This document shows, in pieces, positions 3,561 to 32,709 of a stretch of DNA of 64,000 bases. The notes under the pieces were generated by a model. That model was given only the letters and a program-made list of their open reading frames with translations. It did no database searches and had not been told where the DNA came from. This stretch comes from Porticoccus hydrocarbonoclasticus MCTG13d (GTDB lineage Bacteria > Pseudomonadota > Gammaproteobacteria > Pseudomonadales > Porticoccaceae): the NCBI RefSeq assembly GCF_000744735.1, contig NZ_JQMM01000001.1:1488001-1552000 (forward strand), given 5' to 3'. Each line of letters opens with the position of its first letter. Positions within the stretch are counted from its first letter, which is position 1. The translations under genes and the position numbers were made by a program.

Positions 3561-3721
3561 TGTTTGCTTCAGGTTGAATTATAGGGAGGCAAGAGTCGTC
3601 AGCAAGTATGCAGGCGAGATGAGTTATCGGCGATTACAAGTCTCATGACAGCCAATAGATCAACGTTGTCCCGTCTAGCCGTCTCCTTGATAAATGTTTG
3701 GCAGCAAGCCATAGTATTCCC

Positions 3722-23822: not shown

Positions 23823-23889
23823 GGACGCAAAAGTTACCGTTCACTCCTCCCATATCCGGGTCTCTTTAACAATGTTAATGAGGCTCATC

Positions 23890-26076
23890 ATGATAGACCT
23901 GTTTCGAAAAATGCCATTACTGGCATTTACCTGCCTGCTTTCCGGCGTTGTGCTTGCTACAGAACCCGAGGGTCCTGAGGGCATAGTAGCCGGGACCGAG
24001 ACCACCATAGAGACGTTATCCGCTGAAACCATTCAGGAAGTGGTGGTGACTGCCCAGTTTCGCGATGTATCCGTGCTGGATACCGGCAACAGTATCAGCA
24101 TCCTCGACAGTCAGCAGATTGAACGCCGTCAGGCGCGTCACCTGGATCAGCTCCTGAATCTGGTTCCGAATGTGAATTTTTCCAGCGGCGCATCGCGGGG
24201 CAAATTTATCCAGATCCGTGGTATCGGCGAGCGCAGTCAGTTTATCGAGCCGCTGAACCCCTCGGTGGGCTTGCTGATTGACGGGATCGATTTCAGTGGT
24301 ATCGGCGGTGCGGCAACAACCCTCGATTTGCGTCAGGTTGAAGTGTTGCGCGGTCCCCAAGGCACCCTCTACGGTGCCAACGCGCTGGCGGGGTTGATCA
24401 ACATGAAATCAAATAATCCCTCCGACGTATTTGAAGGCCACATTGAAACCTCTATTGCCGACTATGAAACCCGCACCACCAGCGCAGTATTGAGCGGACC
24501 GATTGCCGATAATCTGGGCTACCGTCTGGCCGTGCAGGGTCACCGCAGTGACGGCTATATCGATAATGAGTTTGTCAATCGCAAGGATACCAGCAACATC
24601 GACGAGCTCACCGCCCGGGGCAAGCTGCACTGGCGAGTCAGCGACCGGTTACAGCTGAACTTTACCGGTTTCTACGTGGATGCGGACAACGGTTACGATG
24701 CCTTTTCGCTGGATAACACCCGCAAGACGCTCTCCGATCAGCCGGGTCACGACCGCCAGGAGTCCACGGCATTTGCGGTAGAAAGTATCTGGCACGCCAC
24801 TGAGCAGTTTGATGTGGTCGGACTGATCAGTTATGCCGATAGCAATCTTGAGTACAGCTATGACGAGGACTGGAGTTTTGCGGCTATCTGTGAGGGCCTG
24901 CCTTGCGAGGGTTGGGAGTATTCCTCTTTTGATCGCTACCAGCGCAGCCGCTATAACGGCAGCATGGACCTCAAGCTGGTTTCCAGCGAAGCCGGGCGTC
25001 TTTTCAATGGCGCCAGCGACTGGGTGCTGGGCATTTATTACCGCAGGCAGAATGAGTCGCTGCTGCGCGAATACACCTATGCTGACGGTGACTTCACCAG
25101 TGATTTTGACACCCGCAACCGGGCTGTCTACGGCCAGCTGGACACCCGGCTCAGCGACCATTTAAAGCTGGTCAGCGGGGCGCGAATCGAGTTTCGTCGT
25201 GCCGATTATCTGGACAGCGAGGGGGTTCGCCACAATACCAGTGAAAGACTCTGGGGTGGCCGTCTGGCCCTGGAATACAGTCTGACGCCGGAAACCCTGC
25301 TTTATGGACTGGTTTCCCGGGGTTACAAGGCCGGTGGGGTCAATAGCAACCCTGAACTGGATTCCGGTGTGCGGGATTTTGATACCGAATATATGTGGAA
25401 TCTCGAAACCGGCATAAAGGGTGACTGGCTGGATCGCACCCTGCAGGTTCAGTTGGCATTGTTTTATCAGATGCGACGGGATATGCAGGTCAAGCAATCG
25501 CTGGTCAAGCCGATTACCGGTGATCTGTGCCCCTGCAGTTTTATTGACATGTTTGACAATGCGTCCAAAGGTCGCAATTACGGCCTTGAGCTGATGTTTG
25601 ACTGGTTGGCGAAGGAGGATGTTCAGGTTTACGGCAGTCTCGGCTTGCTCCGTGCTACTTATCAGGACTTTGAAAGCTTGAGTCATGTGGATGCCGATCC
25701 GGAAAACAATGTGGCGGTCGATCTCGATGGTCGGGAGCAGGCACATGCACCTTCCTACCAGTTTTCCCTGGGAGTCGAAGTGGCCTTAACCGGGCAGATG
25801 TCGGCAGCACTGGAAATGGAAGGCAAACAGCAGTTCTATTTGTCACCGCGGCACAACGCTAGGTCAAACCGCTACGAGCTGTTTAATGCCCGGCTTGAGT
25901 ACCGGTTGCAACAGTGGGATTTCATGCTGTGGGGACGCAATCTGACAGATCGGGATGTGATTGTTCGCGGTTTTGGTGGCTTCGGCAATGACCCCCGCAA
26001 TTTTTATCAGACTGAACCCTATTATCAGTATGGTGAGCCGCGCATTGTTGGCGCCACCGCCAAATACCGCTTTTAA
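23890..26076 (+). CDS. TonB-dependent outer-membrane receptor for thiamine
   Basis: This 728-residue protein has a signal peptide (FRKMPLLAFTCLLSGVVLA), a TonB box region (ETIQEVVVTAQ), a plug domain (about 65-175, with VEVLRGPQGTLYGANALAG) and a 22-strand-type barrel ending in ATAKYRF with a terminal Phe. It imports a large or scarce ligand across the outer membrane using TonB energy. The TPP riboswitch directly upstream and the three downstream thiamine genes indicate thiamine or a thiamine derivative as ligand. The ATG at 23890 has GAGG 6-7 bases upstream; earlier in-frame codons lack one. The gap to the next gene is 27 bases. Confidence 0.92.
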   Translation: MIDLFRKMPLLAFTCLLSGVVLATEPEGPEGIVAGTETTIETLSAETIQEVVVTAQFRDVSVLDTGNSISILDSQQIERRQARHLDQLLNLVPNVNFSSGASRGKFIQIRGIGERSQFIEPLNPSVGLLIDGIDFSGIGGAATTLDLRQVEVLRGPQGTLYGANALAGLINMKSNNPSDVFEGHIETSIADYETRTTSAVLSGPIADNLGYRLAVQGHRSDGYIDNEFVNRKDTSNIDELTARGKLHWRVSDRLQLNFTGFYVDADNGYDAFSLDNTRKTLSDQPGHDRQESTAFAVESIWHATEQFDVVGLISYADSNLEYSYDEDWSFAAICEGLPCEGWEYSSFDRYQRSRYNGSMDLKLVSSEAGRLFNGASDWVLGIYYRRQNESLLREYTYADGDFTSDFDTRNRAVYGQLDTRLSDHLKLVSGARIEFRRADYLDSEGVRHNTSERLWGGRLALEYSLTPETLLYGLVSRGYKAGGVNSNPELDSGVRDFDTEYMWNLETGIKGDWLDRTLQVQLALFYQMRRDMQVKQSLVKPITGDLCPCSFIDMFDNASKGRNYGLELMFDWLAKEDVQVYGSLGLLRATYQDFESLSHVDADPENNVAVDLDGREQAHAPSYQFSLGVEVALTGQMSAALEMEGKQQFYLSPRHNARSNRYELFNARLEYRLQQWDFMLWGRNLTDRDVIVRGFGGFGNDPRNFYQTEPYYQYGEPRIVGATAKYRF

Positions 26077-26103
26077 GGGCATTACCCCAGGGAGATTTAT
26101 CGT

Positions 26104-26352
26104 ATGCAGGTGACCATTGATGTCAGTATGTATCCTAACCGGGAGGACTTCATTCCACCGATCAAGGGGTTTATTGAGAAGATTAACTGCTATCCGGGGC
26201 TTGAGGTGCAGACCTTCCCCACCAGTACGGTGGTACAGGGTGAATACCAGGCGGCCATGCAGGCGGTTCAGGACACCATCGCCGCCTGCCGTGAGGAATT
26301 CGATATGGCGGTATATGTGCTTAAGGTGATTCCCGGATACGAGGCATTCTGA
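26104..26352 (+). CDS. Small thiamine-binding YkoF/MTH1187-like protein
   Basis: This 82-residue protein has no signal peptide. The pattern is MQVTIDVSMYPNREDFIPPI, then INCYPGLEVQTFPTSTVVQG and FDMAVYVLKVIPGYEAF, which fits the ferredoxin-like thiamine-binding fold of the YkoF/MTH1187 (UPF0045/DUF77-like) group. Full YkoF binds thiamine in two such domains; here there is one, so it may act as a dimer or tetramer. It sits between the receptor and the PnuT permease genes and its stop abuts the permease ATG (TGAATG). A cytosolic thiamine-buffering or sensing role is inferred. Confidence 0.8.
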   Translation: MQVTIDVSMYPNREDFIPPIKGFIEKINCYPGLEVQTFPTSTVVQGEYQAAMQAVQDTIAACREEFDMAVYVLKVIPGYEAF

Positions 26353-26967
26353 ATGTCGAACTGGTTAGGCCTGGAAGCACTGGCGGTGGTTTTTTCATTG
26401 GCCTATCTCGTGCTGGCTATGCGAGAGAACAGCCTGTGCTGGTTCTGTGCCTTTTTTGGCACGGCTATTTATATCTGGGTGTTTGGCGGTGTCAGTCTTT
26501 ACATGGGCTCGTTGCTGCACGTCTATTATCTGGTGATGGCGGTTTATGGGTGGTATCAGTGGCGTCGCGGTGGTGTCGAGCACCGCGGCGTCAGGATATC
26601 CCGCTGGGGGCTAACGCAACACTTGTATGCGTTGTTCGCTGTTGTACTGGCTTCTGCCGTGTCTGGCCACCTGCTGTCCCAACACACCGATGCCCACTTG
26701 CCTTATCTGGACTCCTTCACTACCTGGGGCGGGGTGCTGACTACGGTGATGGTGGCCCGCAAAATTCTGGAAAACTGGCTCTACTGGATTGTCGTCGACG
26801 GGGCATCAATTTACCTTTATCTGGATCGTGAACTTTACCTCACGGCCGGCCTGTTTGCTGTTTATCTGGTGCTGGTCGTGCTCGGTTTTATCCGCTGGAG
26901 AAAACATTACCTTGAACAGCCAATCACTGAGCGACGGCAAGAGTTTGCTGCACCAGACGTTATCTGA
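26353..26967 (+). CDS. pnuT: PnuC-family thiamine permease PnuT
   Basis: This 204-residue inner-membrane protein has 6-7 hydrophobic segments. PnuC-family marks are WLGLEALAVVFSLAYLVLA at the N-terminus, a WFCAFFGTAIYIWVF segment, the VYGWYQWRRGG loop (compare the WxxW motif of PnuC transporters) and the late NWLYWIVVDGASIYLYLDR segment. PnuC proteins carry nicotinamide riboside; the PnuT branch carries thiamine. The riboswitch and the neighbouring thiamine genes point to PnuT. It moves thiamine by facilitated diffusion with trapping by phosphorylation, which fits the kinase gene overlapping its 3' end. Confidence 0.9.
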   Translation: MSNWLGLEALAVVFSLAYLVLAMRENSLCWFCAFFGTAIYIWVFGGVSLYMGSLLHVYYLVMAVYGWYQWRRGGVEHRGVRISRWGLTQHLYALFAVVLASAVSGHLLSQHTDAHLPYLDSFTTWGGVLTTVMVARKILENWLYWIVVDGASIYLYLDRELYLTAGLFAVYLVLVVLGFIRWRKHYLEQPITERRQEFAAPDVI

Positions 26968-27679
26968 ATGGCGGCGCTGGGAAATCCGCCTGCCAGGTAA
27001 ACCGTCTCTGGTTAAACCCATGTCCGGCGGTATGACCAATTTGTCTTATCTGGTGGAAAGTGGCTCCAGGAGAGCCGTAGTGAGAGTCAATACACCACAC
27101 AGCAAGGCGCTGGGGATTGACCGCCAAAGGGAAGAGGCTCTGCTTCGCCTGTTGCAGCCCACTGGGTGTGTCCCCAAGCTGCTTTATGTGACCGCCGAGG
27201 TACTGGTGACGGAGTTTGTCGACGGACGATTATGGGATGCCGGGACGGTTGATAGCCATCATCGGGTAAACCGGCAACTGGTGCCCCTGCTCGAAAAAAT
27301 CCGGGCTTTTCCCAAGCCGGCTACAGCCAGCCGTTTCAGCTACCTGAATCACTGTCAACACTACCTCGCCCAGCTGGTCGTTCGCCCCGTGGCGGCAGAT
27401 GCTATCGAAGAGCATGCTGCAGCCATTGATGCCGGCTCCTGGCAACCGGTCATCTGTCACCATGACCTGATACCTGAAAATATCATCGATACGGGTCGTG
27501 GCCCGGTGATACTGGATTGGGAATATGCCGCCTGGGGGCACCCTGGCATGGATTTGATACGGCTCGGTGTTGCTGAAAGCCACCACAGCGCCGTGGGTCG
27601 TCTCAAACTGCGGGATCTCCAGCGCGGCATGGATGCTCTCTGGTTGGCGCTGACGGATCAGTTGGCGGGTGTCGTTTAA
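26912..27679 (+). CDS. Thiamine kinase-like aminoglycoside/choline kinase family protein
   Basis: This enzyme of about 255 residues has the APH/choline-kinase fold: the nucleotide loop region PMSGGMTNLSYLVESGS, VTEFVDGRLW, the catalytic loop VICHHDLIPENIIDTGRG (HxD-x4-N) and the metal-binding ILDWEYAAWGHPGMDLIRLG. This resembles ThiK/YcfN and choline kinases. Its place at the end of a TPP-riboswitch operon supports thiamine as substrate, giving thiamine phosphate and trapping imported vitamin. The start is uncertain: TTG 26912, inside the last 56 bases of pnuT, has GGAG 11 bases upstream; the first in-frame ATG (27017) would cut the nucleotide loop. Confidence 0.85.
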   Translation: MNSQSLSDGKSLLHQTLSEWRRWEIRLPGKPSLVKPMSGGMTNLSYLVESGSRRAVVRVNTPHSKALGIDRQREEALLRLLQPTGCVPKLLYVTAEVLVTEFVDGRLWDAGTVDSHHRVNRQLVPLLEKIRAFPKPATASRFSYLNHCQHYLAQLVVRPVAADAIEEHAAAIDAGSWQPVICHHDLIPENIIDTGRGPVILDWEYAAWGHPGMDLIRLGVAESHHSAVGRLKLRDLQRGMDALWLALTDQLAGVV

Positions 27680-27731: not shown

Positions 27732-28151
27732 TCAGGCAGAGGCCTCCTCGTGAGCCGCCGCAATCATGGTAGATGCGAGGATGCCGTAAGCGACTATCCA
27801 TGCTTCTTTTACCTCATCGGTAAAGCTGTCGCCAAGGCCGGTCTGCAGGGTTTCGATCAGCGCACTGCCGACGGTATCGTAATGGGCATCTTTAACCCCG
27901 TAGGCGAGATGACGCTTGCCCATGGCTTCCACTACGGGCACCAGTTCGTCGAGTCGATCCAGCATGCGCACCGCAGCGCCGATCATTTCCATCAGCTTTT
28001 TACCCTGCTCCCCCATATTCCCCTTGAACAGGGGTTTCAGGGTCGGATCAGCGGCAAACAGGTTGTTATAAAACAGCGAGGCTGCGGTATCGGCAATCGG
28101 TTCCACCTTGGCCCAGGAGGTTTTGCAGGCATGTATTTGCTCGGGTGTCAT
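27732..28151 (-). CDS. Single-domain bacterial globin (Vitreoscilla hemoglobin-like)
   Basis: This 139-residue myoglobin-fold protein has the proximal histidine in MGKRHLAYGVKDAHYDTVG, a CD-loop phenylalanine in PTLKPLFKGNMGEQ and the typical C-terminal helix AWIVAYGILASTMIAAA. It has no reductase domain, so it is not a flavohemoglobin, and it lacks the truncated-globin glycine pattern. Related proteins bind oxygen or convert nitric oxide to nitrate with help from a reductase. It is the last gene of the five-gene heme operon, 11 bases after the cytochrome gene, with GAGGATAT before its ATG. Cytosolic location differs from its periplasmic neighbours. Confidence 0.92.
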   Translation of the reverse strand: MTPEQIHACKTSWAKVEPIADTAASLFYNNLFAADPTLKPLFKGNMGEQGKKLMEMIGAAVRMLDRLDELVPVVEAMGKRHLAYGVKDAHYDTVGSALIETLQTGLGDSFTDEVKEAWIVAYGILASTMIAAAHEEASA

Positions 28152-28162
28152 GGATATATCCT

Positions 28163-28531
28163 CTATTGTGGTTGGGCGGTCAGCTGCGAAAGCATATAGC
28201 TGACCGCCTGTGCCATTTGTTCATCGGTTAATGTTGAACCACCGCGGGCGGGCATCAGCCCGTAACCGTTGGTGGCATGTTGGACAAGGATTTCCTCCCC
28301 CTGGCTGATCCTGGGTGCCCACATCCTGTTATTGCCGATGATGGGTGCACCATTGATGCCCGATGCGTGGCAGACGCGACAGTTCGCTTTCACCAGTGGT
28401 TCGCCGGGGTGGGCGGAAGAAGGCGTCTGCCCGGCAGGTGTTCCATCGTCGACGGATGAGCCCGGCTTGTCGGAGCAGGCCGACAAGCCGAGACAAATAA
28501 CAGCGGCGATCACGCATTTTTTGTTCAACAT
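28163..28531 (-). CDS. Cytochrome c5-like lipoprotein
   Basis: This 122-residue exported protein has a hydrophobic N-terminus ending in a lipobox, ICLGLSAC, so it is probably lipid-anchored. One heme c site, NCRVCHASGINGAPIIGN, and a later Met ligand in YGLMPARGGSTLTDEQ define a class I, c5/c555-like monoheme cytochrome; the MPARGG segment is typical of c5. It probably carries electrons between the membrane-bound cytochromes of the operon and a partner. It lies 30 bases after the DUF3365 gene and 11 bases before the globin gene. Confidence 0.92.
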   Translation of the reverse strand: MLNKKCVIAAVICLGLSACSDKPGSSVDDGTPAGQTPSSAHPGEPLVKANCRVCHASGINGAPIIGNNRMWAPRISQGEEILVQHATNGYGLMPARGGSTLTDEQMAQAVSYMLSQLTAQPQ

Positions 28532-28561
28532 AGGGCCACCAGGGTCAGAAATTCGGATCAG

Positions 28562-29146
28562 TTAAAGAGGAACACGGATGACCACACCACCCATCACGTC
28601 ACCGATATCGAAGTCGGTTCTGGGGGAGTCCTTGTGATCGTTATGGCAGGTTGTGCAGGCGGGGGAGACGGCGACATCGGGATATACCGCCGTAAAGTAG
28701 GTCACGTCACCCAGCTTTTCCTCGCCGTAGAAGTTTTCACCGGGATTGTCCACAGTGTATTGCAGGCCCTCTTCTTCAAGGGGGGTTTTGGGTGCATTCT
28801 GCTTGTTGATAGGCCACAGGGATTGTAGCGAGTAAGTGAATTCATCGGTCACTTCCGCGACGGCCTCCGAGCCTGCCCGGAACATCTGGGCCGGCAGTAA
28901 GGCCCCGTTTTCTATTTCCTTCCAGTGTTCATCCGGCTTGATGGCGCCCGCGCCATTGGGTCCCAGGCGCTGAATGATCAATTTGGTGTAGTTGGCCCGG
29001 TCGGCATTCATGACCGCAAAGAGTGAGTCAGTATAGAGTTTTGGTGGTATGCCCGCTTTTGCTGGTGGGGCTTCATTGCAGGCAGTAATGACAAGGCTTC
29101 CGGTGAGCAGTGTCGTTATCAGGGCTATTTTTTTGATGTGTTTCAT
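28562..29146 (-). CDS. Tll0287-like (DUF3365) periplasmic heme protein
   Basis: This 194-residue exported protein has a signal/lipobox region (ALITTLLTGSLVITAC) suggesting a lipoprotein. It has the Tll0287/DUF3365 pattern: ADRANYTKLIIQRL, ALLPAQMFRAGSE and YFTAVYPDVAVSPACTTCHN, with a CTTCH heme c site, followed by IGDVMGGVVIRVPL. The fold is PAS-like and in known members a heme c is buried in it, proposed as a redox or gas sensor; some act as the input of signalling proteins. Here it stands alone, without output domain, inside an electron-transfer operon. GAGGAATT precedes the ATG. Confidence 0.88.
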   Translation of the reverse strand: MKHIKKIALITTLLTGSLVITACNEAPPAKAGIPPKLYTDSLFAVMNADRANYTKLIIQRLGPNGAGAIKPDEHWKEIENGALLPAQMFRAGSEAVAEVTDEFTYSLQSLWPINKQNAPKTPLEEEGLQYTVDNPGENFYGEEKLGDVTYFTAVYPDVAVSPACTTCHNDHKDSPRTDFDIGDVMGGVVIRVPL

Positions 29147-29215
29147 GGTGAATTCCTCGTGGTTTCAGAGTAATGACGTGGGGGTAGGTTGTGGTGGTTA
29201 CAGCGGTGAATTGCA

Positions 29216-30529
29216 TCAGTCAGCCACCCGTTTGAGTGACCAGTCGATGGACGGAATGTGGTTGGCTGGTTTGCCGTTGAAGTTGTTCCTGATCAGTGCC
29301 GGGTCAGCCAGGGCGTCAATGGAAAAACCGAGACTGTGGCACTGCATGCAAACCGGCCGGATCATCTTTTCATTGGGACGCAGGTTGTGGTTCTGGTTGT
29401 GATTGACCTGTACCACCGTTTCCCGATCGATGATGTTCTCCGCTCTCGGCATATGACAGGTGGCACAGCTGACGGCCTGCTCCACCGGAATGGCACCGGC
29501 GATGGCCTGGGTTAACAACTGGCCGTGGGGCGAGCTGTCAAATCCCCTCGAGTGGTCATCGTTGTGGCAGGTCAGGCAGGCTTCGCTGGCGGCAAACAGA
29601 GTGTCTGTCCGGTGTGCACTGTGGCAACTGTTGCAACCCTGCTGCAGAGACAATGCCGTCTCCTTGAAGGGCATTTTGGAATCGGCAGGGCGGATAGCGG
29701 GCAGGGACTGGGCCAGTCGCATACCGTGTTTGCCCGATTTATAGCTTTCGGCTTCGTGAATATGGCAGGTCTGGCATTGCGCAATGCCGGGGTTTTCGAG
29801 CCATTCACCGGAGCTGACATCACTGTGACAGCCACCGCAGTCCACGCCGGCATCGGCATGGCTGCTGCCAGACCATTCCTGGTGGATATCCGGGTGGGCC
29901 GCTTTTTGCTCGGGGAATGTCGGCTGTTGTTCGGGTACGCGTTTGCTGGCGAGAATCGCGGCGCCATTGGGGTTGGTGAGGCGAGCTATTTCTTTCAGCC
30001 ATGGACCCGCGTGGTTGTGAACGAGAAAGTCTTCAAAGAGTGCCCGGTTGTCGTGATAGTTGTGGCAGCCTGCGCTGGCACAACTATCAAAGGCCAGATC
30101 CCGATGACTCTCCCGGTCGTCGCCGACGTCGGTGTGACAGTGAAAACAATAATCCTCTGGCAGGGTTACTCCCACCGGGGCTGTAATTTCTTTGCGGTGC
30201 TCGGTGTGACAACTGACACAGTAGCGGGCATCCACCACACTGAGCCGGTCTGCATTGCGCGGGTCGGTAAACTTCTTTTTCGGGTGCGTATCGTTGGCCT
30301 CTGTCAGTTCCGCACCATGGCAGCCGACACAGGCTTCCTGGATCAGTTCTGGACCACCAAAGGCCTCTGTATGACAACTGCTGCAGGCCAGCTCGATCTG
30401 AAAGTGCCCATGGCTGGTCTCGCCGATCAGTAGTGCCTGTTTATTGTCGGCTTTGAACAGGATATAGCCGTAGTAGCCGGCTATCGACAGCGTGACAAGC
30501 ATCCATGTGGCCCAGATGATTTTTTTCAA
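29216..30529 (-). CDS. Membrane-anchored multiheme cytochrome c (about 11 hemes)
   Basis: This 437-residue protein has one N-terminal TM helix (IIWATWMLVTLSIAGYYGYI) and a periplasmic part with eleven heme c motifs: CSSCH, CVGCH, CVSCH, CFHCH, CASAGCH (a CxxxCH variant), CGGCH, CQTCH, CNSCH, CLTCH, CATCHMP and CMQCH. The C-terminal CATCHMP followed by a His-rich stretch and a last CxxCH recalls the end of NrfA/HAO-type cytochromes, but no CxxCK active-site heme is seen. The start is TTG 30529, since no ATG or GTG fits and the gene follows the FAD-protein gene by 16 bases. It is probably an electron conduit or reductase receiving electrons from that protein; the terminal acceptor is unknown. 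Confidence 0.88.
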   Translation of the reverse strand: MKKIIWATWMLVTLSIAGYYGYILFKADNKQALLIGETSHGHFQIELACSSCHTEAFGGPELIQEACVGCHGAELTEANDTHPKKKFTDPRNADRLSVVDARYCVSCHTEHRKEITAPVGVTLPEDYCFHCHTDVGDDRESHRDLAFDSCASAGCHNYHDNRALFEDFLVHNHAGPWLKEIARLTNPNGAAILASKRVPEQQPTFPEQKAAHPDIHQEWSGSSHADAGVDCGGCHSDVSSGEWLENPGIAQCQTCHIHEAESYKSGKHGMRLAQSLPAIRPADSKMPFKETALSLQQGCNSCHSAHRTDTLFAASEACLTCHNDDHSRGFDSSPHGQLLTQAIAGAIPVEQAVSCATCHMPRAENIIDRETVVQVNHNQNHNLRPNEKMIRPVCMQCHSLGFSIDALADPALIRNNFNGKPANHIPSIDWSLKRVAD

Positions 30530-30545
30530 TGCATCGGCCCCCGCA

Positions 30546-32576
30546 TCAGTAGTAATACACGGTGAGGATATGTAAAGCCAAAAGGACGGGCAGGGGCCAC
30601 GACACAATGATGTGCACCCATTGCATAGACTTTCTTGCGTCTTGCGCGGCCCCTGTCCGCAGTTTGTGGCCAAGGCCAATGGCACCACTGGTAAAGGCGC
30701 CCATCAGGAGTACTGCAAGAAAGTTAACGATCAGCAATTGATTGAGGTTGGATCCCAGGTGAAAACCGCTGTGCAGCACCAGTGTGATACAGCACAAGAC
30801 CCCCAGCGAGACATGGACCAGCCGCCATCCTGAGAACTTGCCCATCCAGCGCCAGGACAGGCGTTTGCGCAGTGACATCAGCGAACCGATAGCGGTCAGC
30901 GCCAACAGCGTAAAGCCCGTGACCTGTTTCCAGAATTTGTCATTCCAGATGCCCTCGAACCAGCCCTGTTGTTGAACGCTGTCGGCTACTTTTGCTTCCG
31001 GCCAGAAGGCGAGCAGTACCACCAGTGCGATGGCCAGTAGTGCCCCTGCGGTGAGCGTGGCGGCCCCGGATTCCCTTTCCATGCCGGCAACGCCCAAAAG
31101 CTGTTGCAGCAGGGGTTTGCAGGCACCGCAGACGGTGCCGGCCCGGGTGCGGTCCTGGAGTTCCGGCAGTGTGCTGCAATTATTGGCGATGGCACTGGAT
31201 AGTGCGCCGTAACTGATATTGTTGCACTGGCAAATGATCGTGCCGCTGGGCCAGTTGCCAATATCGTCACCGCCCTTGCCCCATAAGGTGCCGGTCAGAT
31301 AAAACCGCAGCAGGTGCCAGAACCGGATTTTGCGTGCATTCTGATAGGCCTCCTGGACGCGTCGGGACTCTGGCCAGTTGCCAATAGCCACCGCACCGAT
31401 GATCTTGCCCCGGAGCAGCACCAGCTTCCGGTAGGCACCGCTCGGCTTGTCAAAATATTGAAGTTCTTTCTGGAAGGGTCTGCTGGGTAACTCACTGATT
31501 TCTCCGAGACTGCAGACACTGGTGCCGACCACTTTGAGGTGGCTGATAGCCATGGAGCCCAGATAGCACGGCAGGTTTTCCTGTGGTTCATTGGCAATGA
31601 TTTCCGCGGTCACCGCCGCCTGTTCGTAACCGGGGTTGACCAGCCCATAGGTGACGCCCAGGTGTTCGCAGCATTCACCGATAGCAAAAATATCGGGATC
31701 CGATGTCCTCATCTGGTCATTGACCAGAATGCCAGTGCCCACCGGGATACGGGCTTTTCGAGCCAGTTCCAGGTTCGGCGTGATACCGGTACAGAACAAT
31801 ACGGTATCGCAGTGAATCGTCTCGCCGTCCCGGGTGATGACCCCGGTGACATGCTCAAAACCCTCCACAGAGCGCACACCTGAATGGGTGATGACATCGA
31901 TACCCAGTGCGCGGACTTCGACTTCGAGAAGCGCTGCTGCCTGCTCATCCAGCTGCCGGTTCATCAGTCGCGAACTCTGCTGAACCACGGTGACGCTGGT
32001 ATTGAATTTGAGCAACCCCTTGGCGGCCTCCAGTCCCAACAGACCGCCGCCCACCACGACAATATGACGAGAGCGAAGGATTCGCGCATAGAGACTTTCG
32101 GTGTCCTTGAGACTGCGAAAACTGAACACGCCCTGGCGCTCGATACCTGGAATGTTCGGAATATGAGCGCGGGCACCGGTGGCCAGCACCAACTTGTGAT
32201 AGTGGAAGCGGGTGCCGCTGGCATCGGTAACAGTTTTCCGTTCGCGGTCAATTTCCACGATGGCGGCGCTGGTAAACTGAAAGTTGGGGTGATTGCCGAG
32301 AGCGGGCAACGGCAGATCGATATCATCCCGGTTAATCTCGCCGGCCAACAGGGCCGAGAGCTGAATGCGGTTGTAGGGCTTACAGGCTTCGTCACCGAAC
32401 AGGTGAACAGCCAGTTGGGGTTTTCTGGCGAGAAGATCGTGGGTAAAGCGCATGCCGACGGGACCTGCGCCTATGACAATAATGCCGGCGTCATTGCGGG
32501 CAACCTGTGCCAGCTCAAGGGTGCTGGTATCAGGGGGTTCACAATAACCAATAGTGCTTGATGTTGTGGCGACCAT
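30546..32576 (-). CDS. NirB-like FAD/[2Fe-2S] NAD(P)H oxidoreductase fused to a membrane cytochrome-b-like domain
   Basis: This 676-residue protein has three parts. Residues 30-420 are a two-dinucleotide-fold FAD/NAD(P)H oxidoreductase like the N-terminus of nitrite reductase NirB (GIIVIGAGPVGMRFTHDLL, KPYNRIQLSALLAGE, HIVVVGGGLLGLEAAKGLL). Residues 445-490 are a BFD-like [2Fe-2S] domain with Cys449, 451, 483 and 486. Residues 505-676 hold about five TM helices with His588, 602, 606, 655 and 669 placed to bind b-type hemes. There is no siroheme domain, so it is not a complete nitrite reductase. ATG 32576 has AGG upstream. I infer transmembrane electron flow to the downstream multiheme cytochrome. 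Confidence 0.85.
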   Translation of the reverse strand: MVATTSSTIGYCEPPDTSTLELAQVARNDAGIIVIGAGPVGMRFTHDLLARKPQLAVHLFGDEACKPYNRIQLSALLAGEINRDDIDLPLPALGNHPNFQFTSAAIVEIDRERKTVTDASGTRFHYHKLVLATGARAHIPNIPGIERQGVFSFRSLKDTESLYARILRSRHIVVVGGGLLGLEAAKGLLKFNTSVTVVQQSSRLMNRQLDEQAAALLEVEVRALGIDVITHSGVRSVEGFEHVTGVITRDGETIHCDTVLFCTGITPNLELARKARIPVGTGILVNDQMRTSDPDIFAIGECCEHLGVTYGLVNPGYEQAAVTAEIIANEPQENLPCYLGSMAISHLKVVGTSVCSLGEISELPSRPFQKELQYFDKPSGAYRKLVLLRGKIIGAVAIGNWPESRRVQEAYQNARKIRFWHLLRFYLTGTLWGKGGDDIGNWPSGTIICQCNNISYGALSSAIANNCSTLPELQDRTRAGTVCGACKPLLQQLLGVAGMERESGAATLTAGALLAIALVVLLAFWPEAKVADSVQQQGWFEGIWNDKFWKQVTGFTLLALTAIGSLMSLRKRLSWRWMGKFSGWRLVHVSLGVLCCITLVLHSGFHLGSNLNQLLIVNFLAVLLMGAFTSGAIGLGHKLRTGAAQDARKSMQWVHIIVSWPLPVLLALHILTVYYY

Positions 32577-32591
32577 TCGTTGCCTGTTCAA

Positions 32592-32640
32592 TAAAAAAAG
32601 CCTGTCGGACCACTGTTAAAACAAGTGACTCGGCAGGCTT
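32592..32640 (-). terminator. Terminator-like hairpin in the leader of the heme operon
   Basis: On the minus strand AAGCCTG (32640-32634) pairs with CAGGCTT (32604-32598), with an inner CACT/AGTG stem, and seven T residues follow. It ends only about 16 bases before the ATG of the FAD protein gene. It may end tatC read-through or act as an attenuator. The SD region contains another CAGGC, so the 5' arm could pair with it instead. Confidence 0.5.
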
Positions 32641-32709
32641 CATTACCTGGAACTTGGTGTGTTGCCACTACCCGGCGAGAAAGAGATTCTGGGGCGGCTA
32701 TTTATGTCA

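Follow-up and report, generated by a model that had tools for sequence, protein, structure and literature searches.

The window analysed here is a stretch of 64,000 nucleotides (G000:C1:1488001–1552000) from the single-contig 2.47 Mb genome of Porticoccus hydrocarbonoclasticus MCTG13d. It contains, on the minus strand between positions 27732 and 32576, five tightly spaced open reading frames (ORFs) that form a real operon, which looks from its leader sequence to be part of the nitrate-assimilation regulon. Gene A (30546–32576) encodes a NirB-like NAD(P)H/FAD oxidoreductase fused to Rubredoxin_C, a BFD [2Fe-2S] domain and a membrane domain, and gene B (29216–30529) encodes an anchored 11-haem cytochrome c. 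They are followed by C (28562–29146), a Tll0287-like (sCache_heme) monohaem protein with a lipobox, D (28163–28531), a small cytochrome c with a lipobox, and E (27732–28151), a single-domain globin. The assignments were made with Pfam and alignment throughout, with NCBIfam in addition for A and E and with hhalign and an AF2 model for B. Two starts were corrected: the start of A is most likely to be the ATG at 32576 (the TTG at 32591 is possible) and that of B is the TTG at 30529. An earlier note on this DNA had described five tight minus-strand genes encoding an FAD/[2Fe-2S]/membrane fusion, an anchored cytochrome c with about 11 haems, a Tll0287-type haem protein, a cytochrome c5-like lipoprotein and a single-domain globin; this observation was confirmed, with all five ORFs at the coordinates that it gave.

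The front of A matches Pyr_redox_2 (E = 4e-59), Rubredoxin_C and Fer2_BFD in Pfam, so that A shares with NirB its NAD(P)H/FAD, Rubredoxin_C and BFD [2Fe-2S] portions. The two proteins differ in the remainder. A scores 376 bits against the NirB family TIGR02374 (NCBIfam), which is under the cut-off of 578, and carries a membrane domain with four His residues in place of the siroheme/4Fe-4S half (NIR_SIR), which was absent from A in the Pfam scan and is present in the true NirB of L080, one of the related loci described below. The C-terminal membrane part has no confident match in Pfam. Its residues His588, His602, His655 and His669 are invariant in eight aligned sequences and make up two pairs, 14 residues apart within each, an arrangement that fits two b haems in this domain. 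Weak resemblance to DUF4405 was detected at E ≤ 1 in seven of the eight members, the best of which reached 1.6e-4 whilst the protein of the window gave 0.18; three members also match cytochrome b561 and two match ferric reductase, both weakly, and the comparison with solved structures gave no credible match (best E 0.18).

B contains 10 CXXCH motifs and one CX4CH (Cys150–Cys155–His156), which makes 11 haem motifs, and begins with a hydrophobic helix (the membrane anchor). Across 63 aligned sequences, the 33 motif columns show no variation, 10 His residues outside the motifs are likewise invariant and His306 is present in 61; these additional residues are enough for two His on each of the 11 haems. 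Pfam relates B to cytochromes of the c3/c7 type, with an N-terminal c3-like part of five haems and a C-terminal part of six. The AF2 model has a mean pLDDT of 75.4; its confidence is high for residues 1–30 and from about 170 to 437, and poor between these segments. The top PDB profile matches were octahaem nitrite reductase in one search and NrfA in another. HMMER alignments of B to NrfA were set aside owing to their permuted order; in addition, there is no CXXCK in the frames read and no PF02335 match at a Pfam E of 0.1.

The relationship to octahaem cytochromes was analysed with proteins from other genomes (L118–L127) that were found with PF13447, which we take to be the HAO family. The B motifs at 231, 252, 299, 318, 355 and 394 align in order with octahaem motifs 2, 3, 5, 6, 7 and 8. 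Comparison of the C-terminal half of B with the octahaem family by hhalign gave E values of 1.3e-19 over 280 columns and 4.4e-17 over 188, and in the control run the real score was 131, whereas 20 shuffles with the haem motifs preserved reached at most 68. On these alignments, the C-terminal half of B is homologous to the octahaem HAO-type cytochromes; the N-terminal half scored at shuffle level. B therefore has in common with octahaem HAO and nitrite reductases six haem motifs and a homologous haem-packing region, and is distinguished from them by the extra N-terminal five-haem c3-like part, the membrane anchor and the lack of the catalytic haem 4. Octahaem motif 4 has no CXXCH of B aligned with it, and the active-site haem of HAO is number four by order of attachment (according to the part of PMC8840924 consulted, which also describes some NrfA proteins with CXXCH in place of CXXCK). 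With this motif missing, B retains HAO-like wiring and has lost the known catalytic centre, and it is likelier to be a conduit than a nitrite reductase; a catalytic haem may still lie elsewhere in the protein.

These features bear on the proposal that B is an ammonia-forming nitrite or hydroxylamine reductase of the octahaem nitrite reductase/NrfA type, fed with NADH via A and working in the periplasm for assimilation. The PDB matches, which had raised B as a straightforward nitrite reductase, and the HAO-type homology of the C-terminal half would suit such an enzyme. It is set back by the absence of a haem motif at the haem 4 position and by the 10 invariant His residues, which with His306 could bis-His-ligate all 11 haems, and we consider it rather unlikely. 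The nitrite or hydroxylamine reductase activity of B that was implied by the NrfA/HAO-like traits remarked on in the earlier note is weakened by the missing haem 4.

B also resembles the decahaem cytochromes DmsE/MtrA and MtrC in its number of haems. It scores 40 bits against DmsE (TIGR03508), far under the cut-off of 192, and 31.4 bits against MtrC domain II/IV in Pfam, barely over the cut-off of 30, and it differs from these cytochromes in having an N-terminal membrane helix. Both matches, together with the pairing of a multihaem cytochrome c with a b-type membrane domain that weakly resembles the ferric reductase and b561 types, are what might be expected of a gene set that reduces iron or extracellular acceptors by electron export. 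The five genes, however, include no outer-membrane barrel (MtrB-type barrels were not searched for, and a porin and a TonB-type receptor recur as neighbours of A–B–C). CXXCH is confined to B, C and D in the 45 neighbour clusters that occur most often, so that no second multihaem cytochrome recurs, and the leader and neighbours discussed below favour nitrate. Electron export is accordingly a very unlikely function.

The lipoboxes of C and D were identified by eye and, with the residues at +2, suggest by the lipoprotein sorting rule that both may be outer-membrane lipoproteins. C matches PF11845 with 64.9 bits (cut-off 24.1; E = 1e-17) and has a single CXXCH, like the stand-alone Tll0287/sCache_heme proteins; the best matches to solved structures, with E values of 0.47 by profile and 0.82 by sequence, were not credible. 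The only Cys residues of C in the window are those of the lipobox and the CXXCH. No Cys is present in the scanned stretch of 59 of its 71 relatives, and in the five inspected among the other 12 the Cys lies in the signal region. Met46 is conserved in 72 of 72 sequences. The excerpts of PMC12889525 describe a stand-alone relative from P. putida that is Cys/His-ligated and binds NO weakly, and a signalling relative without that Cys that binds NO tightly. C of the window differs from Tll0287 and from the P. putida protein of those excerpts in that it has no Cys able to match their axial Cys and in its invariant Met46. Judging from these residues, C may be a His/Met carrier or contain a labile site; the invariance of Met46 makes C less than an obvious NO-reactive haem.

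D matches the CBB3 and class I cytochrome c models in Pfam, and its Met93 is conserved in 40 of 40 sequences. E is a globin without a reductase domain, as in single-domain haemoglobins of the Bjgb/Vgb type, and its His81, which we take to be the proximal His, is present in 21 of 22 aligned globins. A single-domain globin and a flavoprotein are encoded together in the Bradyrhizobium narK-bjgb-flp-nasC unit, which is under NasS–NasT and serves NO protection (PMC4724949, in part). The present operon resembles that unit in combining a single-domain globin with an FAD oxidoreductase in a putative nitrate-assimilation unit under NasS–NasT. It differs in that the Bradyrhizobium unit, in the portion of PMC4724949 consulted, shows neither a multihaem cytochrome nor a membrane FAD fusion nor a Tll0287 protein.

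A profile of B was compared with 84,980 species genomes and matched 406 stretches that encode a relative (E ≤ 1e-3); the analysis covered the 80 best of these (L028–L107). All 80 loci were chosen by B alone and the partners were then sought by tblastn. The record titles name Pseudomonadota of several classes, two metagenome-assembled genomes (MAGs) of Nitrospirota/Nitrospiria and one Poribacteria MAG. A is present in all 80 loci, in 78 by tblastn and in L068 and L069 as a separate ORF, so that its apparent absence from the latter two in tblastn is a limit of sensitivity. The association of the FAD fusion with the multihaem cytochrome, for which the earlier note had proposed a co-occurrence search, is thus complete among these loci. 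C is present in 79, the exception (L092) stopping at a contig edge, and A, B and C are consecutive by tblastn in 76, the others being L038, in which B is split, L068, L069 and L092. By tblastn, D was detected in 51 of the 80 loci and an E-type globin in 36, while 29 loci have a truncated globin and 26 have a Fer2/FAD reductase; some globin of either type is present in 64. From these counts, the conserved unit is A–B–C, mostly with a globin of either kind, and we are highly confident that A–B–C works as one unit. Of the five-gene set envisaged in the earlier note, this core is kept and the exact set of five is not universal. The variation of D and E between lineages might be expected of a chance or loosely selected neighbourhood with no joint function, but that explanation is contradicted by the linkage of A (80/80) and C (79/80) to B across several classes and phyla and is hardly credible. 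The distribution of B itself is patchy, with 26 positive genomes among the 244 of the order.

The composition of the variable part is relevant to a further explanation, in which A–B–C–D act as a redox overflow valve that delivers electrons from NADH, by way of a small cytochrome c, to terminal oxidases or peroxidases while metabolism shifts to nitrate. D is present in 51 of the loci and, being small and having a conserved Met, is a cytochrome c that would be suited to this role, and C may also be a carrier in view of Met46. D was not found in the other 29 loci, whereas a globin recurs in 64, and we regard an overflow valve as unlikely; only selected neighbours were annotated, so that an absence of oxidase genes is not established. 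In L036, L039–L045, L047–L051 and others, a truncated globin takes the place of globin E, in most cases with a Fer2/FAD/NAD reductase after it, a pattern that suggests that globin modules are exchangeable between loci. A fusion of genes A and B in Marinobacter (L068 and L069), which a long frame had suggested, was rejected on inspection of the frames, which show A as a separate gene. A is split over two overlapping frames in G007 (L023) and B over two frames in L015/L038, which may reflect either decay or an error of assembly.

The leader of the operon lies directly 5′ of A. On the minus strand it reads CAGGT-AATGAA-GCCTG, after which come a stem and a T run. The first element (32634–32649) is an ANTAR-type hexaloop hairpin (P2) and the second (32594–32641), just 5′ of the start of A, is an intrinsic terminator consisting of a stem-loop and T run. 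Both were recognized as sequence patterns, and the 3′ arm of the P2 hairpin doubles as the 5′ base of the terminator. The P2 element described for ANTAR regulators has a hexaloop whose first residue is A and whose fourth is G, and it lies at the 5′ base of a terminator (PMC3369931, in the part consulted), and Paracoccus NasT binds nas leader RNA when nitrate is present (PMC3795266, likewise in part). The leader analysed here has the same organization, with an A1/G4 hexaloop hairpin overlapping an intrinsic terminator. The pattern AATGAAGCC-N15-40-GGCTTTTTT occurs at exactly three sites in the 2.47 Mb genome, compared with none for the reversed control. One site is the leader of the five-gene operon, the second is the leader of nrtA, which heads a run of nrtABC, an FAD oxidoreductase, nirB and nasA (L108), and the third is the leader of a porin gene that precedes both nasT and an NrtA-like gene regarded as nasS (L113). 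The one ANTAR protein in the genome is NasT. In this genome, NirB, NasA and NasT were assigned by searches, and the names nrtABC, nasS and porin rest on likeness to Pfam-fitted representatives and on position. The leader motif and its genomic distribution indicate that NasT very probably controls the operon in Porticoccus. The third site (G000:C1:1787562–1787601, minus strand; positions 3563–3602 of L113) precedes an alginate-export-like porin, which is a candidate nitrate porin.

Leaders could be placed in 67 of the 80 related loci. A P2 hairpin overlaps a terminator in 13 of these, compared with 16 of 670 windows taken at random from those loci; the test required A first and G fourth, and all 13 also have A second, which was not required. 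Both hexaloops (P2 and the upstream P1 hairpin of the full ANTAR motif; loop AA.G..) with a T run are present in eight of the 67 leaders, compared with six of 2010 windows and none of 2010 shuffles. One or other of the two motifs occurs in 20 leaders, although some leaders are near-identical and the counts consequently overstate independence. A lax first terminator criterion discriminated poorly (49 of 53 leaders and 175 of 265 controls) and stricter criteria were used. A simple consensus terminator scan did not report the leader terminator of the window, and an Rfam search of the region gave no match.

A gene resembling NrtA, NrtB, NasT, NirB or NasA flanks the core in 24 of the 80 loci by tblastn (26 if the porin is counted), and Pfam agrees for one representative of each type of neighbour. 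In L080, nrtB-nrtC-nirB-nirD-nasA-A-B-C-globin (E) are arranged in one run. Among the 244 genomes of the order, NirB over its cut-off is present in 23 of the 26 B-positive genomes and in 133 of the 218 others (p = 0.005, a value that, like those below, ignores genome size and kinship). The presence of NirB in 23 of the 26 B-positive genomes speaks against B as an assimilatory nitrite reductase; in favour of that role, B-positive G049 and G053 have a weak NasA-like match and no NirB. A NasA-like protein at E ≤ 1e-100 is found in 24 of 26 and 122 of 218 genomes, respectively (p = 2e-4), but the link is not robust, as it depends on the threshold and nine of the 24, the weaker matches, may be other molybdoenzymes. 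Cytochrome d1 (the cd1 nitrite reductase family) is not significantly tied to B (6/26 and 25/218; p = 0.11). In five of the 10 genomes with both NasT and B (G042, G083, G139, G168 and G184), the two are no more than 10 kb apart. The suggestion of nitrogen oxides in the earlier note thus gains support from the ANTAR/NasT leader, the 24 neighbourhoods and the co-occurrence with NirB, and loses some with respect to an enzymatic role for B.

The best explanation of these data as a whole is a NasT-switched membrane relay that serves nitrate assimilation by clearing nitrite and NO, a tentative explanation whose chances we place a little below even. Nitrate or nitrite would release NasT from NasS, and NasT would grip the hexaloop hairpin of the leader, so that the overlapping terminator could not form and the operon would be transcribed. 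A would accept hydride from cytosolic NAD(P)H, pass the electrons through FAD and the [2Fe-2S] centre to a pair of b haems within the membrane, and deliver them to the anchored 11-haem B in the periplasm. B would store these electrons and conduct them to C and, in the loci that have it, to D, both of which are haem proteins. The cytosolic part of NO removal would fall to the globin, either E or a truncated globin accompanied by its own Fer2/FAD reductase. The purpose would be the disposal of nitrite and NO by-products that escape to the periplasm during nitrate assimilation, for which the recurrent globins and the nitrate switch make periplasmic NO/nitrite removal the likeliest candidate. Flow of electrons from NADH to the periplasm is probable, and NO or nitrite as the final acceptor is possible but somewhat doubtful. 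The path from NAD(P)H via FAD, [2Fe-2S] and b haems to a multihaem cytochrome c, which had been outlined in the earlier note, fits the domain anatomy and the A–B–C linkage, with the acceptor unproven.

Several observations weigh against a NasT-switched relay for nitrite and NO. Its terminal acceptor is only an unproven candidate; Met46, as an axial ligand, could make C a carrier and not an NO-reactive haem, and the Cys-ligated P. putida relative binds NO weakly. No nitrate gene is present in the flank, of 10 kb or less, of 56 of the 80 loci. Neither motif is present in 47 of the 67 leaders, and several of the motif-bearing leaders belong to close relatives. In the Porticoccus genome, the upstream P1 hexaloop hairpin was not found in any of the three leaders, and the whole-leader RNA fold is not significant (z = −1.57). 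At the stricter threshold of E ≤ 1e-200, NasA-like proteins are found in 15 of 26 B-positive and 95 of 218 other genomes (p = 0.21), a result that slightly lowers our confidence in the relay as a whole. The presence of NasT does not co-occur significantly with B (10/26 and 60/218; p = 0.26), so that other lineages must control A–B–C otherwise. Furthermore, in the B-positive genome G109 (G109:C51, L114) no NirB or NasA exceeds the threshold, and the disregard of genome size and kinship in the p-values also counts on this side.

The usual picture of nitrate assimilation comprises transport, NasA and NirBD, each of them facing the cytosol. The protein families of the operon are known, as is the NasT nitrate regulon, and what is new is the predicted membrane relay that is linked to this regulon. 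In our searches of the open-licence literature we found no description of the A–B–C set and no link of the gene set to growth on nitrate; the set is not described in the parts consulted of PMC9230427, PMC10734462, PMC6443915 and PMC13322032. A more specific interpretation is that the operon constitutes an unrecognized NasT-switched membrane branch of nitrate assimilation, in which NO and nitrite are cleared outside the cytoplasmic membrane, as a periplasmic counterpart of flavohaemoglobin; this is doubtful at present. Equally doubtful is the corresponding account of its parts, in which the relay would consist of a NirB front joined anew to a b-type cytochrome, together with an HAO-family cytochrome shorn of its catalytic haem. 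If the relay does operate under the NasT signal, this conserved system would add an outward electron branch to nitrate assimilation and provide a cheap test of how cells handle leaked nitrite and NO, the predicted control by NasT making the function directly testable. B, as a natural HAO-family cytochrome without the catalytic haem, would be useful for tracing the origin of the HAO enzyme family.

In the window, the plus strand at 23872–27679 encodes a TonB-type receptor, an 82-residue protein, a PnuC-like transporter and a kinase-like ORF, all named from reading. Relatives of the TonB-type receptor and of the PnuC-like gene adjoin A–B–C in Neiella (L040, L045 and L106), a distant genus, and a relative of the 82-residue protein does so in L045 and L106. 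The neighbours shared by Porticoccus and Neiella hint at co-transfer.

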